64,000 bases of DNA, taken from positions 18,802 to 82,801 of IMG/VR virus record IMGVR_UViG_3300046458_000091; one strand, 5' to 3'. Position numbers and translations under genes: made by a program. Numbering within the stretch: the stretch's first letter is position 1; every line of letters starts with the position of its first letter. A model generated the notes under the pieces. The model did not search any database, was not told the DNA's origin, and saw nothing but the letters and a program-made list of their open reading frames with translations. This DNA comes from a virus. Of the stretch, positions 11,535 through 49,488 are shown piece by piece.

Positions 11535-12278
11535 TTACTTGCCCAGCATGCGGCGGCGTAGACGCATCGACTTCGCGCGCCGCATCTTCGCTGCACCGGA
11601 GAAGGCCTTTTTCTGCATTTTACGCACGGCGCTTTTCTGGGCAGCGGTCAGGCGAACGTGGCCGCTGACTCGCTTTTTGATGCGCACTTTCTTGCCCTGG
11701 CGCACGGCCATGACCTTCTTGTAGACCGCATCCATCATGTTGTCATCGTCGCCACTGACGAACTTGTCCGCGTCGTCGAGCATGGCATCGTCGCCCTGCG
11801 GCAGCTTATCCAGAAGTGCGTCATGCACGCGGGCAGCTACTTCGTTGTCGAAGCTCATTTCTTCGCCCAGCAAGGCGTCAATGTCTTCAGGGGCAATACC
11901 TTTATCTTCCATGTAGTCGCCGATCAGATCGGACAGATTCGCGGCATAGTCGGATTCGGCGTCGGTGATTTCTTCGTCGCCATCCGTGGCCACGCCGACA
12001 ATCAGCGCATACAGGCGGTCGCCGTAGCCTTCGCCCTTTTCAAGCTCCGACTCAGACCACTCCTGGACGATCATCACCGCGTCTTGGCGCATTTCGGCGG
12101 TGATGAGGGTGTCAGGCGCGTTTTCCTCGGTGATGTCGTCGAGCATGGCGCCCGGCTGATTCAGCGGCTTTTCTTGTTGCTGCTGTTGTTGCTGTTGCTG
12201 TTGTTGGTCAACAGCCGGTGCGGCGTAGGCCTGGGTGATGGCCGCGCCAGCGGCCAGTACGGTTTTCAGGTAGTTCAT
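11535..12278 (-). CDS. Head/tail-region protein with polyglutamine tract and basic C-terminus
   Basis: 247 residues with three parts: an N-terminal hydrophobic stretch (LKTVLAAGAAITQAYAAPAV), a run of 11 Gln (residues 25-35), and an acidic middle with two AMLDD motifs (44-48 and 165-169). The last 50 residues are strongly basic (KKVRIKKRVSGHVRL, KMRRAKSMRLRRRMLGK), fit for nucleic acid or capsid-interior binding. It is encoded between sheath and tube-cap genes. Function unknown; a scaffold, internal or processed head protein is plausible because it shares the MLD motif with the capsid protein and the predicted protease. Confidence 0.6.
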   Translation of the reverse strand: MNYLKTVLAAGAAITQAYAAPAVDQQQQQQQQQQQEKPLNQPGAMLDDITEENAPDTLITAEMRQDAVMIVQEWSESELEKGEGYGDRLYALIVGVATDGDEEITDAESDYAANLSDLIGDYMEDKGIAPEDIDALLGEEMSFDNEVAARVHDALLDKLPQGDDAMLDDADKFVSGDDDNMMDAVYKKVMAVRQGKKVRIKKRVSGHVRLTAAQKSAVRKMQKKAFSGAAKMRRAKSMRLRRRMLGK

Positions 12279-12290
12279 GGGGTCACCTCC

Positions 12291-13937
12291 TTACGGGCGC
12301 ACGATGTTTTGCTGGTTGCTGATAACCCGGGCGGTGCCGACGTAAGACATGAATGTCTCGATGGCCATCCGTTCCATGGGTTGGTTTTCGCTCGGCTGGA
12401 TAGTGGCGTTGTAGGCGCCGCCGTCGAGTTCAGCGCTCGGTTGAAGCCAGCCCGCCGACTTCAGCGCTGGGAAAAACTTCGCTACAAAGTCTTCGGTTGT
12501 CTTGACTGCCTGATCCATTGGCTTTTGCAGGGCTTGCTGAGCCACGGCTGCAATCGTGTCGTCCACGTAAGTCGCCATTTCCACAACGGCGATGAGCTTG
12601 GTGGCGCCCTCGGTTTTCGCGCCGGTCAGGGAGTCCCACCAGACGAAATTGCCGCCGCTCACGTAGTCCACATAGAACACAGGGTTGATACGGCTGGCCG
12701 CCAGGGTTTCCAGGTCGTCCGATTCCAGCTCTACGGTCTGGATCATGCCGGTACGGGTAACCGCGAAATCACTGCCCGCGATCACGACATTGCGTTTTGC
12801 GATGCCCTTGGCGTTGACCACTGCGTTACGCGCGCAGCGCAGGCCGATGTTCAAGCCGGACGTGCCGATGAAAGCCTGGCCACCCGCTGCCGGATTGGTA
12901 GCCGTGAACGGGGCCCAATAGCACTGGCTGTAGATGATGTCGGTATCGCCGCCTACGGAGTCGTAGAAGTTAACGGCAGCCTCAACGCTGAAGCGGCCCG
13001 GGATGTCCCACGGCACCTGGCGGTTGATGTCCTTGCCCAGCTGGAGCAGGCGAGAAAGCAGCGCAACGCTTTCGGTGCCGCCAGAGCCAATGTAGGTGAA
13101 CGAAGGCTTGGCACGGCGCAGGCGCGCTACAGCAGCGTCCAGGTCGGCATTGGTGTACAGCGTCGGGCCTTCAGTGAAGTACTGGAGCGGCGAGCCAGAG
13201 AAAATATCCTTGTTGCCGGTCTTGCCGTAGAACACGCAGGTCGGCGGGATAACCGCGTCCAGCGCCACATCAGTCACCAGCAGCAGGTCGGTGTACTGGG
13301 TCACGATGTCGGTAATGAAGTAGCTCTTACCGAATTCGTCCAGAGCAGCCGGATCAAGCGAGCCAGTGTAAGGACCCAGCACGATTTCGTTGGTATTCAC
13401 GTCACGCAGTTGCAGGGTGACGATTTTGGAGGCCTGGGCCACGCCCGCGTCATTTTCAACCGCGACAGCATGGATTTCGGGCTGCACGCCCTCGCTGAAG
13501 CATTCCAGGTGCTTGATGGCCAGCAGATCACCTGCCGACAAGCCCACCTCTTCATCGACCAGTTTCCATACCGGCGTTGCAGTAGCGCCCTGGGCCGGGG
13601 GCAAGGAAGCGGTGGCCACCATCAGCTGGTTCTTAGCGCTGGCACTAACCAGACGCGAGACAACGGCCTGTACGGTGCCCGCCTTGAGGGCTTCATAGAT
13701 ATGAACGTAGGGCTGCGCCAGGGCGCTGGCCGACATCGACTGAGCAGCGCCCAGCCAGCGGGTTTGCTTGCCCTTGGAAACCGCAAAGGCCTTGTCAATG
13801 CGCCCACGGCTAAAGCGGCCAGTGATGGCCATGTTGTGCGCCACAGTGTTGGTGCTGGGCTGTTCGGACATGTCGTTGATCGGGTACAGCAGTACGCCGG
13901 AACGCTTGTCGATGGTGCGCGAGAAAGGAATGGTCAT
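12291..13937 (-). CDS. Contractile tail sheath protein
   Basis: 548 residues. The sheath subunit wraps the tube and contracts on infection. The C-terminal part carries the typical sheath features: IPGRFSVEAAVNFYDSVGG, the CYWAPFTATNP...AFIGTSGLNIG block, NAKGIAKRNVVIAGSDF, a long helical segment and a terminal MAIETFMSYVGTARVI. The length is within the myophage range. The start is 13937, overlapping the upstream stop by 4 bp. It shows that the phage is myovirus-type. Confidence 0.85.
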   Translation of the reverse strand: MTIPFSRTIDKRSGVLLYPINDMSEQPSTNTVAHNMAITGRFSRGRIDKAFAVSKGKQTRWLGAAQSMSASALAQPYVHIYEALKAGTVQAVVSRLVSASAKNQLMVATASLPPAQGATATPVWKLVDEEVGLSAGDLLAIKHLECFSEGVQPEIHAVAVENDAGVAQASKIVTLQLRDVNTNEIVLGPYTGSLDPAALDEFGKSYFITDIVTQYTDLLLVTDVALDAVIPPTCVFYGKTGNKDIFSGSPLQYFTEGPTLYTNADLDAAVARLRRAKPSFTYIGSGGTESVALLSRLLQLGKDINRQVPWDIPGRFSVEAAVNFYDSVGGDTDIIYSQCYWAPFTATNPAAGGQAFIGTSGLNIGLRCARNAVVNAKGIAKRNVVIAGSDFAVTRTGMIQTVELESDDLETLAASRINPVFYVDYVSGGNFVWWDSLTGAKTEGATKLIAVVEMATYVDDTIAAVAQQALQKPMDQAVKTTEDFVAKFFPALKSAGWLQPSAELDGGAYNATIQPSENQPMERMAIETFMSYVGTARVISNQQNIVRP

Positions 13938-14368
13938 TGCTGAGCCTCCACAGGGGCAGCGGCTGGAGCTGCGGCCTCAGTTTTGCCAGGCTTGGTGACC
14001 TTGGCGGTGCTCTTGCCCGCTGTCGAATCGGCAGGCGTATCACCTACCGGGTCAAGAGGCGCCTCAGGGACCGGCGCCACCACTTGGGGAGCGGTCAGCT
14101 CTGCGAAGTCCTCAGCATCACTGCCAGCACGGCTGGCCAGCTGGGACAGATCGGTAACCAGCAGCCAGGCCTGGTCAATGCTGCGTACGCGCACCTTCAC
14201 GGCCTCGCCCGGGGCGATAGGGGTGTTGATGCCCGAGGACGGGACTACCAACGCCTTGATGTGCTTGTGCTTCAGCTCCAGCACGAAGGGGAAGGTCTGA
14301 CCATCCACCAGTTTCTCAACGAGAGCCTGCGGGGCGTCACCTGCCTTGCTATCAATCTTTACTGTCAT
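13934..14368 (-). CDS. Small structural protein between capsid and sheath
   Basis: 144 residues. The first 85 are a compact beta-rich domain (FPFVLELKHKHIKALVVPSSG, EAVKVRVRSIDQAWLLVTDL); the last 55 are Ala/Pro/Lys-rich and unstructured (KSTAKVTKPGKTEAAAPAAA). It overlaps the 14352 gene by 17 bp and the sheath start by 4 bp. It may be a capsid decoration or head-tail connector protein. It shares the beta-strand plus 'GT/GEAVKV' arrangement with the C-terminal part of the next gene (VPAYGTVAVEV-like), so the two may be distant paralogs. Confidence 0.55.
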   Translation of the reverse strand: MTVKIDSKAGDAPQALVEKLVDGQTFPFVLELKHKHIKALVVPSSGINTPIAPGEAVKVRVRSIDQAWLLVTDLSQLASRAGSDAEDFAELTAPQVVAPVPEAPLDPVGDTPADSTAGKSTAKVTKPGKTEAAAPAAAPVEAQQ

Positions 14369-15035: not shown

Positions 15036-15048
15036 GACGGCCCCCTGA

Positions 15049-16731
15049 TCAGGTCAGTGCAAACACGTTCTTGATGGTGATCAGCGCGCAACCCAGGGCC
15101 GAAGCCTTGTGCGGGTTGGCTTCAGTCAGTTGACGACTGAACAGCGCAGCACCGGTTTTCAGGTCGGAATTGACCGCCAGCGGGATCAGGGTCGGCGAGA
15201 CCGCATCAGAGAAGACAATCGGGTTACGCGCCACTTGCGGGGAGCGGCCGATGCACAGCATCTCGATGTCGGTCTCGGTTTCTTCGACGACATACGGGTC
15301 ATAGATGACGTCGTATTTGCCCTTGTAGCGGCCCACGCGCCAGAAGCCAGGCTTCGCGTCAACGCCGGACGATACGAAGTCGTTGCTGTCCATCGACAGG
15401 AACTGAGCCATACCGATAGCGCCCACGTAGATGAACGCCAGGCCGTATTCCATGGTGGTGTTGGCCACCGCCTGGTCAACAGCCGCGACGAACGAACCGA
15501 AGTCGCGCCAGCCCTGCGCACGGGTCTTCTGGAGCAGCATTTCAGCCGCGTTGAAGTCGTAAGTGCGGTGGGTGTTCTTCGCCAGCTTTTTGACCTTGCG
15601 CAGAGCCGCGATATAGCGCTCGTTGGCCAGCTGAGTACGCGCTGCCTGGACCGCGATGGTCAGGCGGTCGGCGCCCAGTTCCGACTGGGACTGGCTACGC
15701 GAATCAGGGGTGGCCTGCATGATCACGCGCGAGGGCGCGCAGTACAGGGAGAAGCTGGTAGCGATGGTGCCAATGTTCGGCGCCAGGGCTGGGTTTTGCT
15801 CGAAATCGATAAACGCCTGTGCGTCTACATCGACGTCCGCAGGCAGCGCCGTAGCGAACGCCAGAGAGCCCACGCCGGTTTTTACGTTGATTACACCGGT
15901 AATGGAGTAATCGGTGCCGCCCGCCGAAAAGGAGCCGACCAGATTGGAGTTGTCAGTGCCGGAGTTGTTGGACTGCTCGAAAGCAACCGAAAAACCGTTA
16001 ACTGCGATGGTGGTGCGGTTACGCAGCACAGGTACGGTGCCGCCAGCGCCACCGCTTTGGGTGGTAATGGCAAAGGTGCCGCTCTTGCGGTCGCCCGCGA
16101 TGGTCACCGGCACAACACGTTCAGAACGGGTGTACTCCTGGCCACCGGCCACGCCGTCGATGATGTCACCCGCTTTGTAGGCGCCGAAGGTGGAGCCTGC
16201 AATGGAGGTAATGATTGCCAACTTCGACTCGTTAGAGCTGAGGTCGGACGGCAGGTAAGCGCCGAACGGAATCGCCTCGCTCAGACCGCCAGTGATGGCC
16301 ACCGCGATGCGGTTCGGCTGGTGCGACAGGGACGCCGACGTGTTGTTGGTACTGATGCTGTCGAGGGTGACGCCATCGGGCAGGACGTTGGTGGCCTTGC
16401 CGTCAGAGATGTTTTCGGCCTGGGACAGAACGGCGTCCAGCAGGTCGGCGGACGGGGTGAAACCGTGTTGGCGTTCGAAGGCGTTGATGCCGTCGAGCAT
16501 GGAGGTTACGGCCAGGGCCTTGTTCTGGTCGCCGTCGATACGGTCCAGCAGGCGGCGCATGCGTTCAGGGGCCAGGCGTGCAGCGTCGGAGACAACGTTT
16601 TTCACAACGTCTTGGGATGCCGGGCTCAGGCTGTCGAGCATTGCGCCGTTATTACGGGCTGCCGCGACCATCGAACCAACTCGTTCCTCGACTTCGTACA
16701 AGCCGGAGTCGGGCGCGTAAAGATTGGGCAT
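15049..16731 (-). CDS. Major capsid protein (HK97-fold, with an inserted beta domain)
   Basis: 560 residues. The N-terminal ~110 residues are helical and delta-like, containing AMLDS at 30-34. A beta-rich stretch (about 110-300, VTIAGDRKSGTFAITTQ...) looks like an inserted or Ig-like domain. The C-terminal half has capsid features: ERYIAALRKVKKLAKNTHRTYD, EYGLAFIYVGAIGMAQFLS, FWRVGRYKGKYDVIYDPY, then IEMLCIGRSPQVARNP and KASALGCALITIKNVFAL. A T4 gp23-like maturation cut after the delta region is plausible, with the predicted protease at 48568 as the enzyme. It is separated from portal and protease by about 32 kb. Confidence 0.78.
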   Translation of the reverse strand: MPNLYAPDSGLYEVEERVGSMVAAARNNGAMLDSLSPASQDVVKNVVSDAARLAPERMRRLLDRIDGDQNKALAVTSMLDGINAFERQHGFTPSADLLDAVLSQAENISDGKATNVLPDGVTLDSISTNNTSASLSHQPNRIAVAITGGLSEAIPFGAYLPSDLSSNESKLAIITSIAGSTFGAYKAGDIIDGVAGGQEYTRSERVVPVTIAGDRKSGTFAITTQSGGAGGTVPVLRNRTTIAVNGFSVAFEQSNNSGTDNSNLVGSFSAGGTDYSITGVINVKTGVGSLAFATALPADVDVDAQAFIDFEQNPALAPNIGTIATSFSLYCAPSRVIMQATPDSRSQSQSELGADRLTIAVQAARTQLANERYIAALRKVKKLAKNTHRTYDFNAAEMLLQKTRAQGWRDFGSFVAAVDQAVANTTMEYGLAFIYVGAIGMAQFLSMDSNDFVSSGVDAKPGFWRVGRYKGKYDVIYDPYVVEETETDIEMLCIGRSPQVARNPIVFSDAVSPTLIPLAVNSDLKTGAALFSRQLTEANPHKASALGCALITIKNVFALT

Positions 16732-16797
16732 TACGTGTTACCTCATTACTGATGATGGGCTGCGCCCGATACGTTTCAGAAATGATGGTAAGGGTCC

Positions 16798-16847: not shown

Positions 16848-19800
16848 CTACTTTTCGAGCACGATCAAACGCCCCCCGGCGTCGGTTTGCGCCAGCAGGT
16901 TTTTATCCTTGAAGGTGCCGCCTTCCAGGGGTTCGACCGTGGCGTCATGGGACTCAAGCCAGGCCCTGAAGGACGTCGCCGCCGCATCTCGACCGAAGAA
17001 AACCCCTTCCCCTGCGATGGCTACCAGCGTTCCGCCAGGCGCCAACATGCCGAAGGCGCGCATGATGTGAGCGGCGTCCCGGCGATTGCTAAAGGGTGGG
17101 TTCATGATGATGGCCGGGTACGGCTGTTCCGGCGTGAAGGTGTCGAAGTCGTTGCCAACCACGTTGTAGCCCTTGGCCGTGAGGATCTCGCGCAGCTGGT
17201 CGGACAGCTCGATGACATCCACTTCCCCGCCAGCAGCCTTTGCAGCGTCCGCCAGGTTGCCATTGCCCGCGCTGGGCTCCAGTACCCGCATGCCTTTCTT
17301 GATACCCGCCAGGGTGGCCATACGCTGCGCCAGGTGCGCAGGGGTAGGGAAGAAATCCAGGCCCACTTTCTGGCCGATGATGGCCCGTTCAGCTTTCTTG
17401 ATGGGGTCCTCTTCGACCTTTGCAACCATCATCGGAATCAGCTCGCGCACGGCGGCCTGCATGGTGGCCACGTCGGTGATGCCCATGCGCGCCAGCCGAT
17501 CTGTCTTGGCGATGGCCTCCATGGGGGCCTCCAGAATCCATGAGCCGGTGCCGGTGCCTTTTAGCGCGTCGTTGGCCTTACGGGTAATGGCCATGTCCTC
17601 GCTGTTCATGGTGAAGCGCTCAGACCGCTGGCCCATCTTGGCCAGGGCTGCAATCAGTCGGCTGTTACCTTTGGGGTTCTGCTTGGCGATGGCTTCCGAC
17701 GCCTTACGGAAACGTTCAGACCATGTGATCAGGCTCGGCATAGTGACGTGCTTGAGGTCGTTATCATCGACCGGGCGGCCTTTGCGGCTCAGCTGCTCGC
17801 TGTAGCTCAGATGCTTATCAGCTTCGTATTGCGCAAGGTGCAGCGCCTTTTGCAGCTCTTCCAACTGGGCCCGGCTCGACAGCTTGGCCAGCAAACCGGC
17901 TGTACCGTTTTCGATGGCGTCGGCGATGTTGTTCAACGTCTGGCCAGCGGCTTTGTCGTAGGAAGCGCGAGCGACGGAACTGGCGGCCATACCAGCACGC
18001 CGGGCGGTGTTGGTGTTGCGCTCCTGGTTCATGCCCGCGTGACCGGTCTCTACGGCTTTATTCGCCACAGCACGCAGCTTTTCCACCTGGTTGGACAGCG
18101 CCTTTTGCGCGCGCTCTGCGGCCTGGCGTTCTGCGGTGGCGAGCTGCTCGGCCTGCTGTTCTGGAGACAGCACGACCGGCGCCTGGGCGGCCGGGATGTG
18201 GGCGGTCTCGCCGGACAAGTACTTCTCGCGGATGAAGTACCCGCCGTTCATGCGCCAGGTGTACGGGTCGATTTCCTTGGCTTGCGCCTGGGTCAGGTCG
18301 GTGCGGATGATGCCGCGCAGCACCTTGTCGCGCTTGGTGGTGTATTCAATGATCTGGTGGGCCACGTCGGACGCTGGCGGCGGCTCAGGCGCCTCAGCTG
18401 GCTCCGGCTCCGACAGTTCGCCCTCAATGAACATATTCAGGACCAGCCCGCCCATATCATCCAGCATGACATCGGCGTTTTCGTGTTCTACACTTGCCCC
18501 TGACGGATGCCCTGAATAGTTATCAGGGGAACATCTGCCCCCTAAAGCGGTGCTTGTTGAATCAAGCATCGCTTTTTCTTTGGGCGGGTCAATCATCAGG
18601 TCGTAATACAGATGACCCATGTTGTCTTTCTCGACGACCACCCGTACCGCTATCGACTCTCCCGCCAACGCCACGACGCTGCTCAGGTTGTAATAGCCCA
18701 CGACCTGGGGCTTTTTGTCGAGCTTGAAATTCTGCACAAACTCGGCCGCCGTGGCGCTCGCCAGGATCTGCGGCACCGCATGCAGCAATTTGATTTTCTT
18801 GGGGTTGCCGCTGAACGCCAACGTCTCCTTGATGCCGCGCTGTCGAATTTCGACCTGGGCCCCAAGCACCGGGCAATTCACCATCTGCCCGCGCATAGCC
18901 TTCAAATACGCTTCAGCAGCGCCCCGCAAGGCCTTCTTGCCCTCAGGGGTGTCCGGGAACTCTCCGAACTCAGTGCCGGTTAACTCAATCGGCGGCTTCG
19001 GTACGTCCGGCTCTTCAGCTGTCTGGTCTTGCTGGGCGGCCTGCTCAAGCGGTATGACAATTCCGCCTTTCTCCACAAAGCTCGCCAGCGTTACGCCGGG
19101 AGCCAGGGAAAATGGCTTAGATTGGGCACGTAGGTTATTGAGCACTACGCCATCTTGCCGCAACTGAGCCAATGCGCTGGGACCTTCGGCGTTCGCCCCC
19201 TGGAGTTGCAGGCTGCCCAGCGTATTGCGGTCGGAGCGGCCGGTTTTCTCAAGGCACTCAACGATTTTGTATTTAGCCCGTGCGACCTGGAATTCACGAA
19301 GAGGCAACTTATCGATACGGCTGGCCGCGTACAGGCTGAATGTATCGAAGCCCACCGCCTTCGCTGCATACTGGTCGGCCGCGTCTGAATCGTCGCCTTT
19401 GGCCTCTTGCTCGGACGGCGCCGCAGGCTGCTCGATTTCCGGCATGACGGCCAGCTTGCGGGCCGCCTCCACCAGCGCGTCAAAGTCCTTGCCGACGATA
19501 CGAATACCGTTACCGCCACCCGGGAGGCGGTAGCTCAACGTCAAGCCAAGTTCCTGCTTTTCCACGCGCGCCCAGGAGCCGACCGGCGTGCTACTGATCT
19601 TGCGGCTCACTACGCCCTGGTTATGGCGCTGATCGTACGGCAGGGTGTCGAGCCAGGAGACGAACGCGGTGGCCAGCACCTTCTGCTGGGCAATCATGCT
19701 GTCATAGCCAGCCTCAGCCGGTGGCATATCCGGCCGGGCGAATACGGGGTTTGCGCCGCCTTCAAAGCCTGCCCGGGTCAGGAACATGTTATTGGCGTTT

Positions 19801-20456
19801 TCCAGCACCCATACGGTGCCCAGCTTGCCCGCCCGGTAGTTGCGCAGGACGTAGCCGTTGGCCTTGGCCGCCTTGATGCCCTCCAGCGTGGCCCTGGCCG
19901 CTTCTGCGCCTCGATCTGCCTCACCATTGATGGTGACTGTCGCCGTGAACGAAAGGTGCTGTACGTTGCCCTGGTAGAACCAGACAGACGTATCTGCCCG
20001 GCTGTTGATGGCGTCGGCCTTCAGAGAGCCCGCAGGCGTGAGCACGTCGGCGGCCTTGACCATGTGCGGCTTGTTGTTAGCCGTAGCGATGTCGCGGGCT
20101 TTCCCGGCCTCCCAGGCGGCGGCCTCATCCCGGTCAGAGATGGCCTTTATGGCAGCGCTAAGGCGGTCAATTGCCGCGCCAGCGGCCGGGCTGACGTGCC
20201 CTGTGTTCAGCAGCTTTTCGTACTGGTCCAGGTCAGCCCGGGCCGCTTCACGTTCCGCAATGAGCGGGTCAGTCTCCGGCGCTGGCCGGGCGGCGCCCAG
20301 GATGGCGCGCAGCTCCAGGCCCCGGGCACTGGCCCGCACCTTCTCGATGGCGCTCAGCGTCCCGGCCTCCAGGCTGTCGCGGATCTGCAACAACTCAGCG
20401 CTGAAACGCATTAACTCTAAAGAGTTATAACTCTTTAACTCTATTGTCTCAGTCAT
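16848..20456 (-). CDS. Giant polyvalent protein: LPD3-like domain plus N6-adenine methyltransferase (Dar-like)
   Basis: 1202 residues. Residues 11-54 resemble the N-terminus of the 20449 product. About 505-625 match the polyvalent LPD3 pattern (AEAYLKAMRGQMVNCPVL, then GHLYYDLMID). AMLDS is at 629-633 and VMLDD at 663-667. The C-terminus is a Rossmann methyltransferase: DFFPTPAHLAQRM, motif I LEPSAGNGN (about 1058), motif IV NPPF (about 1119), so it should methylate adenine. Polyvalent proteins of this kind protect incoming phage DNA, as DarB of P1 does; packaging in the virion is inferred. The start overlaps the upstream stop (ATGACTGA); a second in-frame ATG is 45 bp downstream, after an octamer array. 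Confidence 0.85.
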   Translation of the reverse strand: MTETIELKSYNSLELMRFSAELLQIRDSLEAGTLSAIEKVRASARGLELRAILGAARPAPETDPLIAEREAARADLDQYEKLLNTGHVSPAAGAAIDRLSAAIKAISDRDEAAAWEAGKARDIATANNKPHMVKAADVLTPAGSLKADAINSRADTSVWFYQGNVQHLSFTATVTINGEADRGAEAARATLEGIKAAKANGYVLRNYRAGKLGTVWVLENANNMFLTRAGFEGGANPVFARPDMPPAEAGYDSMIAQQKVLATAFVSWLDTLPYDQRHNQGVVSRKISSTPVGSWARVEKQELGLTLSYRLPGGGNGIRIVGKDFDALVEAARKLAVMPEIEQPAAPSEQEAKGDDSDAADQYAAKAVGFDTFSLYAASRIDKLPLREFQVARAKYKIVECLEKTGRSDRNTLGSLQLQGANAEGPSALAQLRQDGVVLNNLRAQSKPFSLAPGVTLASFVEKGGIVIPLEQAAQQDQTAEEPDVPKPPIELTGTEFGEFPDTPEGKKALRGAAEAYLKAMRGQMVNCPVLGAQVEIRQRGIKETLAFSGNPKKIKLLHAVPQILASATAAEFVQNFKLDKKPQVVGYYNLSSVVALAGESIAVRVVVEKDNMGHLYYDLMIDPPKEKAMLDSTSTALGGRCSPDNYSGHPSGASVEHENADVMLDDMGGLVLNMFIEGELSEPEPAEAPEPPPASDVAHQIIEYTTKRDKVLRGIIRTDLTQAQAKEIDPYTWRMNGGYFIREKYLSGETAHIPAAQAPVVLSPEQQAEQLATAERQAAERAQKALSNQVEKLRAVANKAVETGHAGMNQERNTNTARRAGMAASSVARASYDKAAGQTLNNIADAIENGTAGLLAKLSSRAQLEELQKALHLAQYEADKHLSYSEQLSRKGRPVDDNDLKHVTMPSLITWSERFRKASEAIAKQNPKGNSRLIAALAKMGQRSERFTMNSEDMAITRKANDALKGTGTGSWILEAPMEAIAKTDRLARMGITDVATMQAAVRELIPMMVAKVEEDPIKKAERAIIGQKVGLDFFPTPAHLAQRMATLAGIKKGMRVLEPSAGNGNLADAAKAAGGEVDVIELSDQLREILTAKGYNVVGNDFDTFTPEQPYPAIIMNPPFSNRRDAAHIMRAFGMLAPGGTLVAIAGEGVFFGRDAAATSFRAWLESHDATVEPLEGGTFKDKNLLAQTDAGGRLIVLEK
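20413..20444. repeat. AACTCTWW octamer array (4 units) inside the 5' end of the polyvalent gene
   Basis: Units of exactly 8 bp start at 20413, 20421 (inverted), 20429 and 20437. They encode residues ELKSYNSLEL of the polyvalent protein or, if the second ATG is used, form its leader. Probable binding site for the RHH protein at 32135. Confidence 0.7.
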
Positions 20457-22764
20457 GCATTACCCCAAAAATCGAATCCAGCAGCGCTGTCTGTGTCATT
20501 GCTTTTTCAAAGGCCTTTTCATCGCGCAGGGCGGCGAACACCTGGTCAAACGCGGCATTGATGCGCGCGCGCTCTTCCCCTTCCGGGTATGGCTTGAAGG
20601 GCATCCCCAGGGCGGGCAGGTAGTGGTACTTGTTGTCAGCCAGGCAGCTGAGGTAATCGTTTTTGCGGTCCATGGCGGTCAACTTGTCTTCCAGGTAGGC
20701 CTGGAACGCGCGGGCGGCCATTTCGTGGGTCTCAGACCACTTACGTCCGGCTACACCGTCGTCGAGCGCTTGAGCCTCGACGTAGAAGCGCGACACGCTG
20801 GCGCCGGTCTTGGCGGTTGCCTCGGTGGCACCGACCGGCGAGTAGTACGCGGCGGCCAGCTGGCGCCACAGCTTTTTCTGCTTGAGCATGCCCGGGCTGG
20901 TTTCGCCCTCATATCGCTTATCTACCGCCAGCACCGCAGGCTCCAGGGCGCCCGCCTGCTTGATGGCCAGCGCCACATAGCCTGAACTGTTCTCGATATT
21001 GACGATGGCTGTGGCCCGGCTCTTGGGCGTCAGCTTGATGGTCTCCACCAGTCGCTCAGAGCCGCTGGTTAGGGCGGCCTTGAGCTGGACGAAGGCGGCG
21101 CGGATCGGCCCGGCAGGCATCAGCTCAGGGCGTTCCGTCGCAAACTCTTCCTTGGCGCCCTCTTCTCCGCGCAGCAGGGACGGCATGATGTTGTCCAGGG
21201 CCTTGAACGCTTCGTGTCCCTGGCTACCGGCGCCGTTGAGCTTGGTAATGTTGATGACGCGCTCTACCGGTTCGTAGTGGGCCTTCGCCGCGCCCTTCCC
21301 GCCCGCACCACGCGCCCCGAACGCCATGCCCAGGCGCCCGCCGAACCCAAGCTTGTCCTCTTCGATCTGGAGGACGTCGCTCATGTCCATCCAGGCCCCG
21401 GCGCTCTGCTCTACGTGCCACTTGGCGGCGGCGAAGTCCTCTTGTACCCAGGTGCCGGACTGCACCGCCCGAAAGCCGCACAGCTTTTCAAGGTCGGCCG
21501 TGGACGTCACTGTCACCGGCCGCCCGCCGCTGCGTTCGAACTTCTCGACCACCTTCAGGGTGAAGGTGATGCGCTTTTTAGGCGCCTGGCGCTCTGGATC
21601 TGGCTTTTCCTTTTCGGCCCAGTCCCAGTTATCGGGCTCCCCTTCCTCAGCCTTGGCCACCTGCCCGGCAAAGGTGCCGGTGCGCAGGCGCTGGAACATG
21701 ACCGCGTTGATAAAGCGGCTGCCCATGGACGTCCAGGCCTGGGCCTCTGGTGTGCGCAGGTGGCGGGCCTTGGCGGCGTCCTCCAGGGCGGTTTTCTGCG
21801 CCTCGACATCGGCAATCTGTGCCCGCAGCGCTGCAAACTCTTCCTTAGTGGCCGCCACCTCGCTGCCGTACGCGGCGATATCGGCAGCAGCTGCGGCCGT
21901 GGTCGTTTCTACCGCCTCTTCGTGCATGGGCGCGACCTTCCAGCCGCGTTTGACTCGGTTTTCAAGCTCGGCCTTGGCCTGGTCCCGCGCCGCCGTGGTC
22001 CGGCTCATCGCGTTGTACAGGGTGTTACGGCCGACCATGATTGCTTTCTGCCGGTCGCCCAGTTCTGCCCGCTGCTGAGTCAGCGCGTTGAACTGCTCCA
22101 CCTCATCACTGTTGAGGCTCGCGCCGGTCAGCTCTTCCCCGATCTCAGCCGCAGCCGCCACCACTTCCTCAGTGGTCGTGAGCCGCTCCATCCGCGTGCG
22201 CAGCGTCTCAATGCCGATGGCATAGGATCTGCGCGACTTGGGGCTGTCCTCGGCTGGCATGGGGGCAATGGCGGCGTACAGGCGATTGACCAGATAGCCC
22301 GCCTGGGGCGTCATGCCGCTTTCACGCTGGGCCGCCCAGTCAACACTACCGAACAGGTTGGCCTTTTTGATCAGTTCGCGCGCCTGGCGCGGATTCTCTT
22401 CAATGGCCTTGAAGTCGATGTCAGAGACCCGGAGCATCTGCCCGGCTTCACGCGCCAGCTTGATCGACTGGGCGGCCAGCTCTTTACGGCTGCCGGAGAT
22501 GTACCCGGTGTCCTTGTAGCGGTAGTTTTCGGCGTTCGGGTCATCGCTCAAGCCGTCGTCGGCGGCGAACTCTGCGGCCTGCTCAGCATCGACCGGCACG
22601 GGACCGGTGGCAGTCTCGCCGCCCAGGGCGGCATAGAGCGCCAGCGCCTCGGTGGTGGCGCGGATCTGCTCCATGGCGTTCAAGCTGCCGGACTGAAGTT
22701 GCTCACGCAGTTGCAGCAGCCTGGCGGCGCTGCGGGCCTGCTCGATGGAAGAAAGGGAATTCAT
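20449..22764 (-). CDS. Polyvalent protein with degenerate zincin (LPD1-like) domain
   Basis: 771 residues. Residues 2-48 (IEQARSAARLLQLREQLQSG...) resemble the start of the next gene. The middle (about 220-340) is helical. Residues about 465-750 match the LPD1/zincin domain of polyvalent proteins: FGGRLGMAFGARG, AHYEPVERVINITKLNGAGS, then HEAFKALD and later EMAARAFQAYLEDKL and NDYLSC. The expected HExxH reads HEAFK, so the second metal His is lost and protease activity is doubtful. ALLDS occurs at 760-764, just before the C-terminus. It is translationally coupled to the methyltransferase protein. Confidence 0.82.
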   Translation of the reverse strand: MNSLSSIEQARSAARLLQLREQLQSGSLNAMEQIRATTEALALYAALGGETATGPVPVDAEQAAEFAADDGLSDDPNAENYRYKDTGYISGSRKELAAQSIKLAREAGQMLRVSDIDFKAIEENPRQARELIKKANLFGSVDWAAQRESGMTPQAGYLVNRLYAAIAPMPAEDSPKSRRSYAIGIETLRTRMERLTTTEEVVAAAAEIGEELTGASLNSDEVEQFNALTQQRAELGDRQKAIMVGRNTLYNAMSRTTAARDQAKAELENRVKRGWKVAPMHEEAVETTTAAAAADIAAYGSEVAATKEEFAALRAQIADVEAQKTALEDAAKARHLRTPEAQAWTSMGSRFINAVMFQRLRTGTFAGQVAKAEEGEPDNWDWAEKEKPDPERQAPKKRITFTLKVVEKFERSGGRPVTVTSTADLEKLCGFRAVQSGTWVQEDFAAAKWHVEQSAGAWMDMSDVLQIEEDKLGFGGRLGMAFGARGAGGKGAAKAHYEPVERVINITKLNGAGSQGHEAFKALDNIMPSLLRGEEGAKEEFATERPELMPAGPIRAAFVQLKAALTSGSERLVETIKLTPKSRATAIVNIENSSGYVALAIKQAGALEPAVLAVDKRYEGETSPGMLKQKKLWRQLAAAYYSPVGATEATAKTGASVSRFYVEAQALDDGVAGRKWSETHEMAARAFQAYLEDKLTAMDRKNDYLSCLADNKYHYLPALGMPFKPYPEGEERARINAAFDQVFAALRDEKAFEKAMTQTALLDSIFGVMHD

Positions 22765-29977: not shown

Positions 29978-32005
29978 TCAGAAAGTGCCAGCCGTGGCCT
30001 TGAGCGCATAGGTGGCATAGGCGTCTGAGGCCTCGATAAACAGCTCTCGCAGCTCGCCCTCCCCGTAGGCTGCATAGATGCGTTCCATCTCCTTGAGCAC
30101 GTCCGCAGGCGCGCCCAGATCGGTGGAACCTTCAATGATGCTGTCCAGGTACTCTTTTGCCTTCTGCACTTGCTCATCCTCGGTTGGGTCTGGTGGTGGT
30201 TGTACCGCTTCAGGTTGCGGCGGTGGTTGATCGGTCTCCGGCTCCGACGTTGCCGCCTGGCGCACGGCTTCGGCCGCCTCCTGGGGCGTCTTGCCATCGG
30301 CGAACAGCTGGCCGGTCAATGCTTCTTGAGTCATGGCCACGGCCTGGGCGTCACCATCGGACGCCTCCAGCAGTTCGGCCAGGGTCTGGATAAAGGCCTC
30401 ATCCCACGCCGGGCGCAGCAACACAGGCGCGGGCTCTGGCACTTCAGGTGCAGTCTGTTGCTGATCGGCCAGGGCTTTGGCGTCCGCTTCTGCCTTCGCA
30501 TCCACAGCGGCCAGCCCAGCGCCATCCGTACCGGCCTTGGCCGCCCGCACCAGCGCCCCGCCCACGTCGGCCATGATTTCGGCCTTGGTGACGGCTGCCG
30601 CGTCCAGCTTGAACCCGGCCTTGGTCAGCAGCTCGCGCAGGTCATCCTGGCTGTCGATGCCCTCAATCACCTTGAGCGCGGCGTCGATATCGCCAGCCTT
30701 CAGGCCGTCCGTGAATTTGGCCAGGTCGTCGCGGGTATCTTCCGGTGGCGGTGGCTCGGGGAATAAGCCCGGCTCACCACCTGGCGGCGTGGCCTTTTTC
30801 TTCTCCAGCTGGGCGGTCAGGTCAACAATCTGAGCGTCCAGGTCGGCCAACTGGGCGGTTTTGCTGTCTACGGCCGCCTTCGCCTCAGCCAGCGCCGCGT
30901 CGTCAGCGGCCTTGTTCTCGTTGGCCTTACCGAACTTCGCGCTGTTCTTCTGCACCAGCGCCATGATGCGCCGGGCAACGATACGCGGGTTCAGATCCTG
31001 GCCGCGCTCGGGCGCCACGGTGGCGGTAATGTCCCGCTTGTTCAGTACCCATTTCCAGCTGATCAGTTCATCACTGGCCATGAGCTTGTTCGGCGTGCTG
31101 TCCGGGTTGTGGAAGAACACCGACACGCTCTGGCCGTCATCCATGGAGAACAGCATGCCCACCTGGGTGGTGCCACGGCTCTTGAATGGCTTGCTGACAT
31201 CGACGCTTTCCGCCTTCACGTCGCCGCCCACGTTCTGCATCACGCGCAGCAGCTGGGAGGCCTTGCGGTCGAACTGCTTGTACTCGATCACCATGGCATC
31301 CAGCATGCCGTCGTCGCTCAACTCCTGGGCGATGTCATCCATGGTGGCGCTGTCCATCATCAGGCTGTCGGCGTCATTGCGGCGCAGCTCGTACAGCAGG
31401 TCCGCTACGGTGGTGTCTACCGGCAGGTTGTCGGCGCCCCAGCGCGCGAATACGTCAGTCATGCTCAAGGTCTCATCTTTGGGGATATTGGGGAGGTCGG
31501 CGCTCAGTGGCTGGCTGAGGTCGCCATGCTTGAGCCAGTACTTGAACTGGGTGACGGTGCAGGCAGTCATGCTGCCCAGGCCTTGCCACCCGCGTTCATA
31601 GGAATTCATGTAGGCGTTGCGGGCCTGTTCCTCATCCATGAACCCAAGCATTACCTTGTGCTCATCAAACGAGCCGTCAGCGGCATTCTGGTTGACCACG
31701 TACACGGCCTGGCTCTCTGGCGCCGGGCCAACGTAGATGTCCACCGCGTCACCGTCCGCGCCCTTGGTGCCGTTCACATACCCGTAATGCGCCATACAGG
31801 TGATTGACCACGCCTTACCGTCGCTCTTGCCACGGCGCGGCTGGTGCATCGGTGTCTCGATGGTGATGCGCATCCCGTGGAGCTGCGTGGAGCCCTTGGC
31901 ATAGTTACCGGCCCGGATCTGCTCCGGCGTCGGTTCAGCGGTTGACCCCAAGCCGAACGCGCCCGCGTGTGCGGCACTTTGAAGATTGCTAAAAATGTCG
32001 GTCAT
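29978..32005 (-). CDS. Polyvalent protein with inorganic-pyrophosphatase-like (InPase) domain
   Basis: 675 residues. Residues 33-165 match the InPase domain of phage polyvalent proteins: NYAKGSTQLHGMRITIE, AHYGYVNGTKGADGDAVDIY, VGP, NAADGSFDEHKVMLGF and YERGWQGLGSMTACTV. LMMDS is at 215-219 and GMLDA at 233-237. Residues about 245-400 form a beta-strand plus coiled-coil region similar to the N-terminal half of the 34127 product. The C-terminal 250 residues are helical and acidic. The group is thought to counter host defences on DNA entry. It lies upstream of a terminator and downstream of the RHH gene. Confidence 0.78.
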   Translation of the reverse strand: MTDIFSNLQSAAHAGAFGLGSTAEPTPEQIRAGNYAKGSTQLHGMRITIETPMHQPRRGKSDGKAWSITCMAHYGYVNGTKGADGDAVDIYVGPAPESQAVYVVNQNAADGSFDEHKVMLGFMDEEQARNAYMNSYERGWQGLGSMTACTVTQFKYWLKHGDLSQPLSADLPNIPKDETLSMTDVFARWGADNLPVDTTVADLLYELRRNDADSLMMDSATMDDIAQELSDDGMLDAMVIEYKQFDRKASQLLRVMQNVGGDVKAESVDVSKPFKSRGTTQVGMLFSMDDGQSVSVFFHNPDSTPNKLMASDELISWKWVLNKRDITATVAPERGQDLNPRIVARRIMALVQKNSAKFGKANENKAADDAALAEAKAAVDSKTAQLADLDAQIVDLTAQLEKKKATPPGGEPGLFPEPPPPEDTRDDLAKFTDGLKAGDIDAALKVIEGIDSQDDLRELLTKAGFKLDAAAVTKAEIMADVGGALVRAAKAGTDGAGLAAVDAKAEADAKALADQQQTAPEVPEPAPVLLRPAWDEAFIQTLAELLEASDGDAQAVAMTQEALTGQLFADGKTPQEAAEAVRQAATSEPETDQPPPQPEAVQPPPDPTEDEQVQKAKEYLDSIIEGSTDLGAPADVLKEMERIYAAYGEGELRELFIEASDAYATYALKATAGTF

Positions 32006-32499: not shown

Positions 32500-33138
32500 T
32501 CACCGACCCAGCAGGGCCAGCACCTCAGCTTTCAGCTGACGCAGCTCGGATGCCGCAGCACAACGCGGGCGAGTATCCAGGGGCGTGCGGCCAATGGCTT
32601 GGGCCTTGGGGTGTTCCTGGCGAAAAGTGAGTGCGGTCTTCAGAACTGGGAGGTTGTAGCCCGCCAACGTTTCGGCAACCGTGTTGCTTAGGGTGGCGCC
32701 CTTAACTGAGCGCGTAATCAGGAAAACCGCCTGTAGCGTCTTGCCTGTGCCTTCCAGTTCCGCCTGCCGGGCTTCGATCATGTCCACCAGATCAGCGCAC
32801 GCCCACACGTCAAAGGGCGCAGGGGACACGGGGATAATCACCAGATCAGCAACCGCCAGCGTCAATTGAGTGAGTTTTGCCGCCTTGGCCAGGCCGTCAA
32901 CAATCACCAGATCGTTGTGCAGCTTGGGGATTTCAGCGACCAGCTGGGACTGCTTGATAGAGAACACGGTCATTGGCTGCTCTTCGTGCGCCTCGCTCCA
33001 CTCACGCAGGCTGCCCTGTACGTCCGAATCGACCAGAACCACGTCCAGGCCATCCAGCGCCATGGCGCGGCCCAGGCCCGTGACTGTGGTGGTTTTGCCT
33101 GCGCCGCCCTTGGGGTTCAACACCGCCATTACCGTCAT
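32500..33138 (-). CDS. parA: ParA partition ATPase (type Ib)
   Basis: Deviant Walker A NPKGGAGKTTT near the N-terminus, Walker A' LVDSDVQGS, and LVIVDG for Walker B identify a ParA/MinD-type ATPase. With about 213 residues and no N-terminal HTH it is the short type Ib, which pairs with an RHH protein encoded downstream, as here. I prefer the ATG at 33136-33138 because AAGG is well spaced from it; an in-frame ATG is at 33147. It moves plasmid copies to daughter cells. The upstream array at 33177 is the likely centromere and operator. Confidence 0.93.
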   Translation of the reverse strand: MTVMAVLNPKGGAGKTTTVTGLGRAMALDGLDVVLVDSDVQGSLREWSEAHEEQPMTVFSIKQSQLVAEIPKLHNDLVIVDGLAKAAKLTQLTLAVADLVIIPVSPAPFDVWACADLVDMIEARQAELEGTGKTLQAVFLITRSVKGATLSNTVAETLAGYNLPVLKTALTFRQEHPKAQAIGRTPLDTRPRCAAASELRQLKAEVLALLGR

Positions 33139-33176
33139 CTGAAACATCCTTTTGATATATGGGTTCGGCGCAGTGT

Positions 33177-33647: not shown

Positions 33648-34130
33648 ATGTCAGATACCCCGGCAGGGATGAAAATAATGGTCACGGTAGGCGGTTACGG
33701 TGGCGCAGGTGCTGAGCCGATCACCCTCACAGCCTTTAAAAACAATGCATTAGGGACGACGGTCATCCTGGGCAAGGTTGGGTATAGGGATATACCAGAC
33801 GAAGGCTTTGCCTTTGTCACGAATCTGCGCCTGGCGAACTACGACAGTCTGTTCCGGGACGAAGACATGGGCGCCGCCATCGTGGCGTTCAAAGAGGGCG
33901 AAGGGATGGGCACGATCCTGTTCGACGACGAAGCGATGAAGTACCGCCCCCGGATCGAAATCGACGGCGTGGACACGAAGGGTCAGAAATACCGGCTGGG
34001 CGGGGATATGACGAACGGGGAGATTGCTGTGCTGGCGCTGGCGCATTTCCTCTCGCGCCAGCGCTCCATGAGTGCCGTCTTCAACATGAGCGACGAACTC
34101 ATGCGGGTGTATCAGATCAGGTCGATTTAG
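33648..34130 (+). CDS. Hypothetical protein, the only plus-strand gene in the middle region
   Basis: ATG at 33648 with a CGGAGA site 7-12 bp upstream; 160 residues (MSDTPAGMKIMVTVGGYGGAG...). Blocks: FAFVTNLRLANYDSLFRDED, IVAFKEGEGMGTILFDDEAMK, then a C-terminal helical part. Convergent with the 34127 gene; the two stop codons overlap (34127-34130). Its control must be separate from the minus-strand neighbours. Family not recognised. Confidence 0.6.
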   Translation: MSDTPAGMKIMVTVGGYGGAGAEPITLTAFKNNALGTTVILGKVGYRDIPDEGFAFVTNLRLANYDSLFRDEDMGAAIVAFKEGEGMGTILFDDEAMKYRPRIEIDGVDTKGQKYRLGGDMTNGEIAVLALAHFLSRQRSMSAVFNMSDELMRVYQIRSI

Positions 34131-35338
34131 TCCTGGGCAGCGAAAGGGACCCCATACGGGTCGTACCCGGCATCCTCAAGCGCTGACCGGCCAGCATTCG
34201 TGAGCATATACAGACCCTCGGTGGTCTCCACCAGACCCAGCGCCAGCAGCTGAGCCAGCGCAGCCTGATCCTTGATTTCTTCAGCGTCGGCGGCCGAAAT
34301 CACAGCGATGCTGACCAGCTCAGCCAGACCGGCGTCACTCAGACCCGTGTCGGCGCTGTCCAGCATCGCAATGGCGGTCTTGAACGACAGCGCAAGGTTG
34401 CGCTCCAGGGCGGCCTGATCAAGGTTGCCCTCAGATTCGTTGATTGGGGCGTTGTTCTCCACCACGGCCAGGGCCTGGCGCAGCTGCTCGACAGCGCCAG
34501 CGGTGGCCAGGCTATCCAGCATCACCGGATCTGCCGTGACGATATCCCGCGCCGCGACGTAGGCCGCAGCCACCACCAGTTCAGCCGGTTGCTCTGGTAC
34601 GTCCGCGACCTGGCCCCCGTCGATGCTATCCAGGAGCGCCGCCGCAGCCTTACCGGCAGCATTGAGCACGTTCGCCCCTTCGTCGGTGTAGCGGTCAACC
34701 CAGCCCAACTCAATCAGGTCATCACGCCCCGCCTTGCTGGGAATGTCCCCGTCATCCAACGGCCCCATCTCTGCCAAGGCGCGCAACACGTCCTTGGCCG
34801 CATCGTTCAGTTCTGCCGGTGCCTTCGCCTGCGGCTCCATACTGTCGGTCATGGCGCCCAGCTGCTGCTGGAGATCGGCCACGGTCGCTGCACGGTCGGC
34901 AATCTGGGTGTCCAGCTGCGCCAGGCGCTCCGCGTAGACCTGGGACTGTTTGGGCTTCGTCGTGCGCATGCCCCGGGGCAGCTCAATCTGTTTGCGCGCC
35001 TGGGCCTTCTGGAATGCAGCTTGGTTTCGCTCAGCCAGGGCCGCGATTTCAGCCACGGCCGCCGCGCTGTCGGTCTGGTTCTTCAGTGGCACCGCGTTGC
35101 CGTTCAGCGTGACCTGGAAGATATCGCCGGTAGCATTCACACGCAGCACCACCACCTGGCCGCTCGCCAGCGTCAAGGTGGCCTCGCGGTAGGTCACGCC
35201 CGATACGCGGCGCTTCTTGTCGTTGAACTCATACCCGGCCACGGCCTGGCCTGCTCTGATCATCAGTTGGCTGACTTTCTTGAGGGCCTTGTCTGCGGCC
35301 TGTGCGCTGGAGAAATCAAGCGTATTCGTTGCTGGCAT
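34127..35338 (-). CDS. Polyvalent-like protein with three MLDS motifs
   Basis: 403 residues. Residues 10-110 are a beta-rich domain (SQLMIRAGQAVAGYEF, EATLTLASGQVVVLRV) followed by a coiled coil (QVYAERLAQLDTQIADRAATVA), similar to residues 245-400 of the InPase polyvalent protein. The rest consists of Ala/Leu-rich helices with ALLDS (234-238), VMLDS (272-276) and AMLDS (324-328), and two winged-helix-like repeats (LRALAEMGPLDDGDI; LGLVETTEGLYMLTNAGR). Likely an accessory of the polyvalent group; biochemical function unknown. Confidence 0.62.
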   Translation of the reverse strand: MPATNTLDFSSAQAADKALKKVSQLMIRAGQAVAGYEFNDKKRRVSGVTYREATLTLASGQVVVLRVNATGDIFQVTLNGNAVPLKNQTDSAAAVAEIAALAERNQAAFQKAQARKQIELPRGMRTTKPKQSQVYAERLAQLDTQIADRAATVADLQQQLGAMTDSMEPQAKAPAELNDAAKDVLRALAEMGPLDDGDIPSKAGRDDLIELGWVDRYTDEGANVLNAAGKAAAALLDSIDGGQVADVPEQPAELVVAAAYVAARDIVTADPVMLDSLATAGAVEQLRQALAVVENNAPINESEGNLDQAALERNLALSFKTAIAMLDSADTGLSDAGLAELVSIAVISAADAEEIKDQAALAQLLALGLVETTEGLYMLTNAGRSALEDAGYDPYGVPFAAQD

Positions 35339-42162: not shown

Positions 42163-42163
42163 C

Positions 42164-45656: not shown

Positions 45657-45700
45657 ACAGGCACCACATAGAGATTTGTGGCGGCAATGGTCGCAAACAA

Positions 45701-45725
45701 AAACCGCCACATTGCGTGGCGGTTT
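45701..45725 (-). terminator. Rho-independent terminator with 5' CCCTGCAAA box
   Basis: AAACCGCCAC / GTGGCGGTTT stem with a 5-nt loop (ATTGC) followed by TTTTTG on the minus strand; AACCCTGCAAA precedes it. The core is almost identical to the terminator at 39294. Confidence 0.82.
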
Positions 45726-45742
45726 GCAGGGTTTGCAGGCCG

Positions 45743-48565: not shown

Positions 48566-48567
48566 GG

Positions 48568-49488
48568 TCAGACCGTCCTGATGACGCTACGGACGACATC
48601 CATGCCTTTCGACAGAATCCCCGCCGTCTTCTTGGTTTCCGGCTTTTCCTCAGCTGCGGCGGTGTCGTCCGGCAGTACTGCTCTGTCGAAGCGAACGGCG
48701 CTATCCAGCATCATCGCCGCACGGTCAGGCGTGAACATGCTCCCGCGCTGGAGCTGGGTCGGGTCCACGCTGTCGAGCATCGCCCCGGGGTGGCCAGCGG
48801 CCTTGTAGGTGTCGAGTTTCTTCATCAGCCGGGCGTTGAGGTCCACCAGGTCGTCATTCATCTGGCACTGGTGCAGGTAGTTGGCGCTCATCTCGGCGGC
48901 CACCTTCTCGTGCCCGGAAATGACCTGTTCGACGCTATCCATCATCGCCGCGTATTCAGCCGCGAAGCCTTCAGACTCCAGCTCAAGGCCGCTGGCGTCG
49001 GCGCTGTCCAGCATCGCGTCATAGCCACGGTTCGTGTCGTAGTTCGGGGTTTGAACGAAGTCCATGCCGTGGAAGGTCTTCGGCGTGCGCTTGCCGTTTT
49101 CCTCTGGGGCGTGGAACACAGAGCTGAAGCCATAGGCTTTGCTGTCGAACAGACGGGCGGCGATACGGCCCGGGGAGTTGTCCAGGAATTCCTGATTGTG
49201 CTGCAACGTGCCGTCCGGCATGCACTTGATGAACACCGTACGTACGCACGGCTCCAGGACCACGACCTTACCGCCCTCAATGGCAGTCTCTGGGACCTTC
49301 AGGCCGTACTTGACCCGAAACCCGTGGCCGAAGTAGCCATAGATATCGCCCTTGCGCACCAGCTCTTGGATGGCAGGCCCGTTGAGTACCGCCATGGCGG
49401 CACCGATATCAATATCACGATCCTGGCCGCCGTAGCTGCGCCCGCGATCATTCAAGTTGTAGGTGATGACACCCGTACGCTTACCCAT
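48568..49488 (-). CDS. Predicted prohead maturation protease with four MLDS-like motifs
   Basis: 306 residues, directly after the portal gene, the usual place for the prohead protease. The N-terminal 150 residues form a beta-rich domain with DIYGYFGHGFRVKYGLKVPE, VVLEPCVRTVFIKCMPDGTL, SKAYGFSSVFHAPEENGKR and FHGMDFVQTPNYD, resembling phage head proteases, though I cannot name the catalytic triad with certainty. The remainder is helical and carries AMLDS at 158-162 and 236-240, AMMDS at 181-185 and MMLDS at 259-263. A fused scaffold part or self-cleavage sites are plausible. Confidence 0.6.
   Translation of the reverse strand: MGKRTGVITYNLNDRGRSYGGQDRDIDIGAAMAVLNGPAIQELVRKGDIYGYFGHGFRVKYGLKVPETAIEGGKVVVLEPCVRTVFIKCMPDGTLQHNQEFLDNSPGRIAARLFDSKAYGFSSVFHAPEENGKRTPKTFHGMDFVQTPNYDTNRGYDAMLDSADASGLELESEGFAAEYAAMMDSVEQVISGHEKVAAEMSANYLHQCQMNDDLVDLNARLMKKLDTYKAAGHPGAMLDSVDPTQLQRGSMFTPDRAAMMLDSAVRFDRAVLPDDTAAAEEKPETKKTAGILSKGMDVVRSVIRTV

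Follow-up and report, generated by a model that had tools for sequence, protein, structure and literature searches.

The AMLDS motif in a distant relative of phage P1 as a probable cleavage site of the prohead protease

The pentapeptide AMLDS and its variants, which recur in unrelated proteins of a distant relative of phage P1, are very probably the cleavage sites of the phage's own prohead protease, Pro, which would cut after Asp. The predicted recognition pattern is Met, Leu or Thr, then Leu, Met or Phe, then Asp, with the cut before Ser, Asp, Ala or Gly. This assignment is made because a site in the major capsid protein (MCP) aligns with the P1 site mapped by Edman sequencing, and homologous sites are located directly behind the catalytic domain of Pro, where the density of P1 DarA starts, and ahead of the basic tail of a gp21-like protein. 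The sequences provide homology, positional conservation, enrichment and co-variation; from these we infer cleavage in a phage known from an IMG/VR contig alone, as well as the specificity for Asp, the order of the cuts and their function. The stretch of DNA analysed, here called the window, comprises 64,000 nucleotides; all features given below lie on its minus strand, and a slash marks a mapped or predicted cut.

In P1 the cutting of the MCP and the processing of DarA have already been established by others, the capsid site being the only cleavage site mapped. No published motif for P1 Pro was found in a literature search that covered few subscription papers. The proposal of the initial annotation that AMLDS might be a cleavage site agrees with the Edman-mapped capsid site AMLE/S of P1, and in the comparison with related phages it was strongly supported by sites at homologous positions in more than 100 phages and by co-variation of the residue before the cut between protease and substrates.

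Occurrence of the motif

The initial annotation had reported AMLDS or close variants in several unrelated proteins, and each copy that it listed was verified, with positions correct to within one residue. The exact pentapeptide occurs five times, at residues 158 and 236 of Pro, 30 of the MCP, 629 of a methyltransferase (MTase) polyvalent protein and 324 of an Hdf-like protein. Variants are AMMDS 181 and MMLDS 259 in Pro, AMLDD 44 and 165 in the gp21-like protein, VMLDD 663 in the MTase protein, ALLDS 760 in an LPD1 polyvalent protein, ALLDS 234 and VMLDS 272 in the Hdf-like protein, and LMMDS 215 and GMLDA 233 in the DarA-like protein. Sites absent from that first list are NMMDA 180 of the gp21-like protein and SMLDG 77 and VTLDS 121 of the MCP, the last of which turned out to be the most important.

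Ala, Met, Leu, Asp and Ser are frequent in the helices of these proteins, and the recurrence might be attributed to chance or composition, which we regard as scarcely credible. The looser pattern [ML][LMF]D[SADG] does stay at background outside the head proteins (5 observed, 4.2 expected), and lone loose matches therefore carry no weight. Against chance, six head-associated proteins of the window together carry 15 copies of the strict pattern M-[LM]-D-[SADG], the expectation for the set of seven head proteins being 0.35 (300 shuffles, maximum 3); the remaining 58 proteins have none (0.81 expected). Control motifs with D changed to E, K or N, and reversed motifs, occur in the window proteins only at background frequency. 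Moreover an unbiased ranking of the tetrapeptides in the proteome by over-representation places MLDS first, poly-Q aside (7 copies, 0.15 expected, p ~ 3e-10), and the site positions are conserved over more than 100 phages. Chance is thus refuted for Pro, the MCP and the gp21-like, DarA-like and Hdf-like proteins, the MTase and LPD1 copies excepted.

The suggestion that the motif marks cargo proteins stood for the DarA-like and Hdf-like proteins, whose sites are conserved in relatives, and was weakened for the two polyvalent proteins. In the MTase protein AMLDS 629-633 (18558..18572), located after the LPD3 domain, and VMLDD 663-667 (18456..18470) are weak sites which are not conserved in three close relatives (G001-G003). 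In the LPD1 protein the weak site ALLDS 760-764 (20473..20487), about 8 residues before the C-terminus, is conserved in G001 only among these three. The sites in both proteins may be accidental or recent. The N-terminal 48-aa domain common to both was considered as a general targeting sequence and rejected, as the search against P1 and D6 gave only P1 DdrA, at a non-significant E of 3.8. GLFES 439 of P1 DdrB was also rejected as the source of the reported 76-kDa form, since a cut there should give pieces about 441 and 554 residues long, which are at odds with that form.

Predicted cleavage sites in Pro and in its substrates

The gene for Pro (306 aa; 48568..49488) follows the portal gene, and its product shares 36% identity with P1 Pro over 188 aa (E 1e-21). 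Residues H55, S122 and D143 are invariant across 32 homologues and are likely to be the catalytic residues. In a Foldseek search the top PDB match was T4 gp21 (5jbl; prob 0.96, E 0.012, TM 0.42 to target), making a T4 gp21-like fold of Pro probable; it was followed in the list by herpesvirus proteases, for which the similarity was not significant. All four motif copies are C-terminal to the catalytic domain, two of them in disordered linkers. Site 1, AMLD161/S162 (49003..49017), lies directly after that domain, in a flexible linker (157-172) of low confidence in the AF2 model; it is conserved in homologues, the residue being D in 120 and E in 36 of those aligned. Site 2, AMMD184/S185 (48934..48948), and site 3, AMLD239/S240 (48769..48783), are kept in close relatives, site 3 falling within another low-confidence linker (236-246). 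Site 4, MMLD262/S263 (48700..48714), is aligned with TLFE/S of P1 and AMLE/S of D6. Autocleavage sites C-terminal to the catalytic domain, here predicted sites only, are a trait of the T4 gp21-like prohead proteases. Inside the prohead, Pro would most likely cut itself after D161 and further along its tail, releasing an 18-kDa catalytic domain.

The MCP (560 aa; 15049..16731) was recognised as the homologue of P1 gp23 by tblastn and by phrog_1014. As sole query it gave no match in viral contigs, and its relatives were gathered by genome search and with a closer relative as query. In P1 the MCP cut was mapped by Edman sequencing to E120/S121, within A-M-L-E120/S121. In the alignment the window site VTLD124/S125 (16357..16371) falls exactly on this column (KAMLE120/SVAAEM in P1), which in 59/59 MCPs holds D, E or A with S, A, D or G as the next residue, in a neighbourhood that is variable. 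Two more sites are located in the propeptide. M31, L32, D33 and S34 of AMLD33/S34 (16630..16644) are invariant in 14 MCPs, as are L79, D80 and G81 of SMLD80/G81 (16489..16503), a site conserved in G001-G003. The AF2 model of the MCP (pLDDT 47) is too poor for placing the sites. Pro would remove the scaffold-like propeptide of 124 residues and chop it at 33, 80 and 124.

The gp21-like protein (247 aa; 11535..12278) is a homologue of P1 gp21 by blastp and belongs to phrog_1053. Its N part is acidic (net -35) and its C-terminal 62 aa are basic (net +24). Site AMLD47/D48 (12135..12149) appears as AMLDA or SMLDA in relatives, AMLD168/D169 (11772..11786) is kept in G001-G003, and NMMD183/A184 (11727..11741) is placed at the acidic/basic junction. 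The equivalents of this junction site are EMLDA in G001-G003, SAMLEA in D6 and EMLTEA in P1. Cleavage by Pro would split the protein into an acidic propeptide and a protamine-like basic peptide of 64 residues and charge +24. P1 gp21 is essential, was not detected in the virion and is annotated as a tail or baseplate protein; the motif points to it as a head-core protein that gets proteolysed.

The DarA orthologue (675 aa; 29978..32005; blastp to P1 DarA) contains the Pfam domains InPase (28-159) and DarA_N (234-355). Its site LMMD218/S219 (31349..31363) is aligned with LMTE/S of P1 and LIFE/A of D6, and GMLD236/A237 (31295..31309) with DLLE68/A69 of P1 and AMFE/S of D6. The N-terminus of P1 DarA is cleaved and its density was modelled from residue 70, so that GMLD236/A237 aligns with the start of the ordered P1 protein. 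A cut after D236 would remove the N-terminal part bearing the InPase domain; in this internal protein of the DarA type, the enzymatic domain is thus predicted to be cut away from the packaged part. Such a domain in the propeptide distinguishes this protein from P1 DarA.

The Hdf-like protein (403 aa; 34127..35338; Pfam DarA_N, phrog_1620) differs from P1 Hdf by a C-terminal extension that bears the motif, and P1 Hdf, which is motif-free, was reported to be unprocessed. The sites are ALLD237/S238 (34625..34639; ALLD[SG] or LLLDG in G001-G003), VMLD275/S276 (34511..34525; MMDS in the same relatives) and AMLD327/S328 (34355..34369; kept in all three). Here Pro would trim the extension.

Exchange of Asp, Glu and Ala before the predicted cut

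Asp precedes the cut in the window lineage, Glu in P1, D6 and the phages of Desulfovibrionaceae, and Ala in a single Vibrio prophage. Glu sites are confined to one side of the Pro family tree; they are not a trait of the whole family, and the window Pro, whose sites are all Asp, lacks this feature of P1. Between the Pro tail and the MCP the residue agrees in 56/56 phages (39 D, 16 E, 1 A), a co-variation that comprises only two changes on the tree. In Vibrio sonorensis Pro has Ala sites, and the MCP, looked up afterwards, also has Ala; at the basic junction of gp21 the Vibrio prophage shows LILS/A instead of Ala. D6 mirrors the window with Glu, having 10 copies of M[LMF]E[SAG] in pro, darA, 21 and 23 and none elsewhere. 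Aligned Asp sites of the window are Glu in D6 in six of six cases, against a background of 12% (p 3.5e-6).

Taken as one joint reading, it seems reasonably likely that a single prohead-protease family has exchanged Asp, Glu and Ala at the position preceding the cut, that each switch came with the rewriting of nearly all sites in three to four unrelated substrates (the Pro tail, the MCP, the gp21-like core protein and DarA), and that the missing scaffold or pro-protamine of P1-like phages, one that is proteolysed, is P1 gp21 with its homologues. The residue following the catalytic Ser is Trp with Glu and Ala sites and Ser or Thr with Asp sites, and is a candidate determinant of the specificity.

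Alternative roles and comparison with known systems

The initial annotation had also proposed that the motif is a targeting signal. If the motif were a signal for capsid targeting or packaging, marking prohead cargo with no need of cutting, its restriction to head-associated proteins would be explained, and the targeting propeptides of T4 include the cleavage site, so that the two roles can overlap. Nevertheless targeting is very unlikely as the main role, because Hdf and DarB of P1 are packaged without the motif (as are Ulx and DdrA, with no copy either) and the proven targeting sequence of DarB, its N-terminal 30 residues, is different and motif-free. Moreover the motif coincides with a mapped cleavage site, and its copies, several per protein, also occur in the protease tail and the MCP; they are spread over residues 30-764, for the most part internally or towards the C-terminus, and not at the N-terminus as expected of a capsid-targeting sequence. 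It is somewhat less improbable, and still unlikely, that the motif is a docking site for Pro or the MCP inner surface and that only the copies in the MCP, DarA and Pro site 1 are cut. Pro site 2 and MCP 77 are in or at predicted helices (the MCP model being of low confidence), and multiple copies could provide avidity. Against docking, redundant propeptide sites are normal in phiKZ and SPN3US, and the residue before the cut switches among D, E and A together at nearly all copies, as expected for the specificity of an S1 pocket.

The protease, MCP and DarA of the window are homologous to P1 Pro, gp23 and DarA, the residue before the cut being Glu in P1 and Asp in the window phage. T4 gp21, probably the closest solved fold to Pro, also has a short motif, and its targets are of the kinds predicted for Pro, namely the protease itself, capsid proteins and internal proteins. 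Its cuts follow Glu, and IPIII is not processed when Asp stands at this position; the window motif departs from this trait of T4 gp21-like prohead proteases. At P3 the consensus of the T4 prohead protease has Leu or Ile. The targeting propeptides of T4 internal proteins are short and N-terminal, whereas the sites of the window phage are internal and multiple. As is predicted for the window phage, the phiKZ gp175 and SPN3US gp245 systems have redundant propeptide sites, C-terminal autocleavage and a preference for Ser at P1'. However, their motifs (S/A-X-E and A-X-E) have a small P3 and an obligatory Glu, unlike the mostly hydrophobic P3 and P2 and the Asp at P1 position of the window motif. 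The prohead proteases with mapped sites that were found (T4, phiKZ, 201phi2-1 and SPN3US) all cut after Glu, and Asp before the cut would therefore be a new variant. Herpesvirus assemblin has a distant, non-significant fold likeness to Pro (Foldseek) and a different scaffold organisation. Assemblin cuts Ala/Ser, and the Ala-type sites seen in the Vibrio prophage are similar to this.

With cleavage by Pro as the preferred reading, a cleavage motif becomes available for P1-like phages, and with it a list of substrates that can be tested; for P1, a new search of the virion mass-spectrometry data that already exist could check the predictions. A protease and scattered substrates that change their recognition together would represent a natural experiment in the evolution of specificity.

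The A-M-L-D-S motif and the capsid maturation site

The recurrence of A-M-L-D-S (AMLDS) and its variants in unrelated candidate head proteins had been noticed in the initial annotation, and the positions it gave are right to within one residue; exact AMLDS occurs five times in the window, the remaining listed copies being variants. The class M[LM]D[SADG] has 15 copies in the head set, where 0.35 are expected, spread over six of its seven proteins, and none in the other 58 proteins (0.81 expected). Control motifs (E, K or N versions; reversed) were at background level in the window's set of 65 genes, obtained by codon-score prediction plus two hand-added ORFs. The class was picked after the data had been seen, which is countered by an unbiased ranking of all tetrapeptides, made without a prior motif, where MLDS came top after poly-Q. 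Strict motifs are repeated too in the predicted prohead protease (Pro), major capsid protein (MCP), gp21-like, DarA-like and Hdf-like proteins of three close relatives (G001-G003).

The window, from an IMG/VR virus record of 82.8 kb overall, belongs to a phage distantly related to P1: Pro is 36% identical to P1 Pro (188 aa), P1 gp23 is a homologue of the MCP, and the tail sheath, PmgG-like protein and portal are P1-type. Also encoded are an InPase + DarA_N protein, a DarA_N/Hdf-like protein and the polyvalent proteins LPD3-methyltransferase (MTase) and LPD1. A ParA/CbiA-type ATPase (32500-33147) is consistent with a plasmid-like P1 lifestyle. Nearly related P1-like Pro also occurs in one genome of Vibrio diabolicus and in a metagenome bin (loci L283, L287); the bin is labelled Phycisphaeraceae, perhaps wrongly.

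The motif had been read as either a targeting signal or a cleavage site, and the second reading agrees with the site mapped in P1. Edman sequencing showed that P1 gp23 is cut at E120↓S121 on maturation and then begins with SVAAEM (PMC9024508); the surrounding sequence is KAMLE↓SVAAEM, and the window MCP aligns there as GVTLD↓SISTN. This column holds D in 42, E in 16 and A in one of 59 MCPs; the next residue is S, A, D or G, and the preceding ones are freely variable. Given this alignment and conservation, A-M-L-D-S is almost certainly the Asp form of the mapped P1 site.

The protease and the residue before the cut

A fold search with Pro returned T4 gp21, the T4 prohead protease, as top match (prob 0.96, E 0.012), with herpesvirus proteases next; H55, S122 and D143 are invariant. 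The AMLDS copies at 158 and 236 lie within low-confidence linkers (157-172 and 236-246) of the AlphaFold2 model, and a candidate site directly C-terminal to the catalytic domain is kept across the family. When 168 Pro sequences were compared, a Trp directly following the catalytic Ser paired with Glu sites (37/37 decided) and a Ser/Thr there with Asp sites (121/121 decided); residues 121-123 of the window Pro, where Glu-type phages carry this Trp and Asp-type phages Ser/Thr, correspond to 49120-49128.

The P1-like phage D6 shows the reverse picture: its ten M[LMF]E[SAG] all lie in pro, darA, 21 or 23, and its head set lacks M[LMF]D[SAG]. Aligned window Asp sites are Glu in D6 in 6/6 cases, against 12% of other aligned Asp (p 3.5e-6), and in P1 in 5/6, the sixth being displaced by one residue. 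A P1-like Vibrio sonorensis prophage (L302, L314, L317-L319) carries Ala before the cut at most Pro, MCP and gp21 sites: its Pro tail has LLA↓S, LLA↓S and IFA↓S, its MCP, looked up after Pro, MLA↓A at the key column, and its gp21 homologue MMA↓A and LLA↓S. The Pro-tail state equals the MCP state in 56/56 phages. Since each trait needs two changes on the catalytic-domain tree, independent switch events were few, and the strength of the co-variation lies in the joint change of several unrelated proteins.

Candidate core and internal proteins

The gp21 family (window 11535-12278; about 8743 in locus L319 and 6987 in L322) combines an acidic N-terminal part with a C-terminal 62 residues of charge +18 to +25 in 8/8 phages. 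The junction bears a recognisable site in most of the eight, the exceptions being LILS↓A (Vibrio) and QID↓A (Desulfovibrionaceae). P1 gp21 carries a tail or baseplate annotation; it is missing from the P1 virion mass spectrometry table, and no P1 scaffold has been identified (PMC9024508). Gene 21 was scored essential by CRISPRi, with polar effects possible (PMC10695390). The family is a candidate scaffold or pro-protamine. A poly-Q run at residues 25-35 of the window protein is absent from aligned relatives.

In the DarA-like protein (29978-32005), GMLD↓AMV aligns with P1 DLLE68↓AIS and D6 AMFE↓SIT, and a second, upstream site aligns as well. P1 DarA is known to lose an N-terminal piece of ~9 kDa, and its cryo-EM model begins at residue 70 (PMC12810830). 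The InPase domain belongs to the segment that cleavage is predicted to remove. In G001-G003 the orthologues measure 1220-1440 aa against 675 in the window and carry long insertions in the stretch from about residue 405 to the C-terminus that all of them share. The Hdf-like protein has three candidate sites in a C-terminal extension, kept in relatives; P1 Hdf, which has neither extension nor motif and is reported as unprocessed (PMC12810830), serves as a useful negative control.

Targeting and head maturation

Sites in the MTase and LPD1 polyvalent proteins make a weak case, being unconserved or kept in one relative only. The targeting reading of AMLDS is not supported, and a better candidate for the targeting element in this lineage is a 48-aa N-terminal domain common to both proteins (20292-20435 and 22618-22761), whose two copies stand in tandem within one protein in the fused relatives G002 and G003; it was searched for in P1 and D6 and not found. 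For P1 DarB, the first 30 residues are enough for packaging, and a consensus among Dar N-termini was looked for without any being found. T4 IPIII with Asp before the cut is blocked in processing and still targeted (PMC9026906).

The best model for head maturation is a cascade by analogy with T4. Pro would lie within the prohead and free itself by self-cleavage, remove the scaffold-like MCP N-terminus piecewise, break down the gp21-like core protein in its acidic part to leave a basic peptide, and trim internal proteins. The presence of several candidate sites per propeptide agrees with phiKZ and SPN3US. In P1 others have shown the MCP cut (PMC9024508) and DarA processing (PMC12810830); in the window phage cleavage is in every respect predicted from sequence. 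No paper naming a P1 Pro motif was found in a literature search that covered only a minority of subscription papers. The proteases of T4, phiKZ, 201phi2-1 and SPN3US cut after Glu, whereas the window sites carry Asp; what is new is this Asp-type branch and the coordinated switching between Asp, Glu and Ala.
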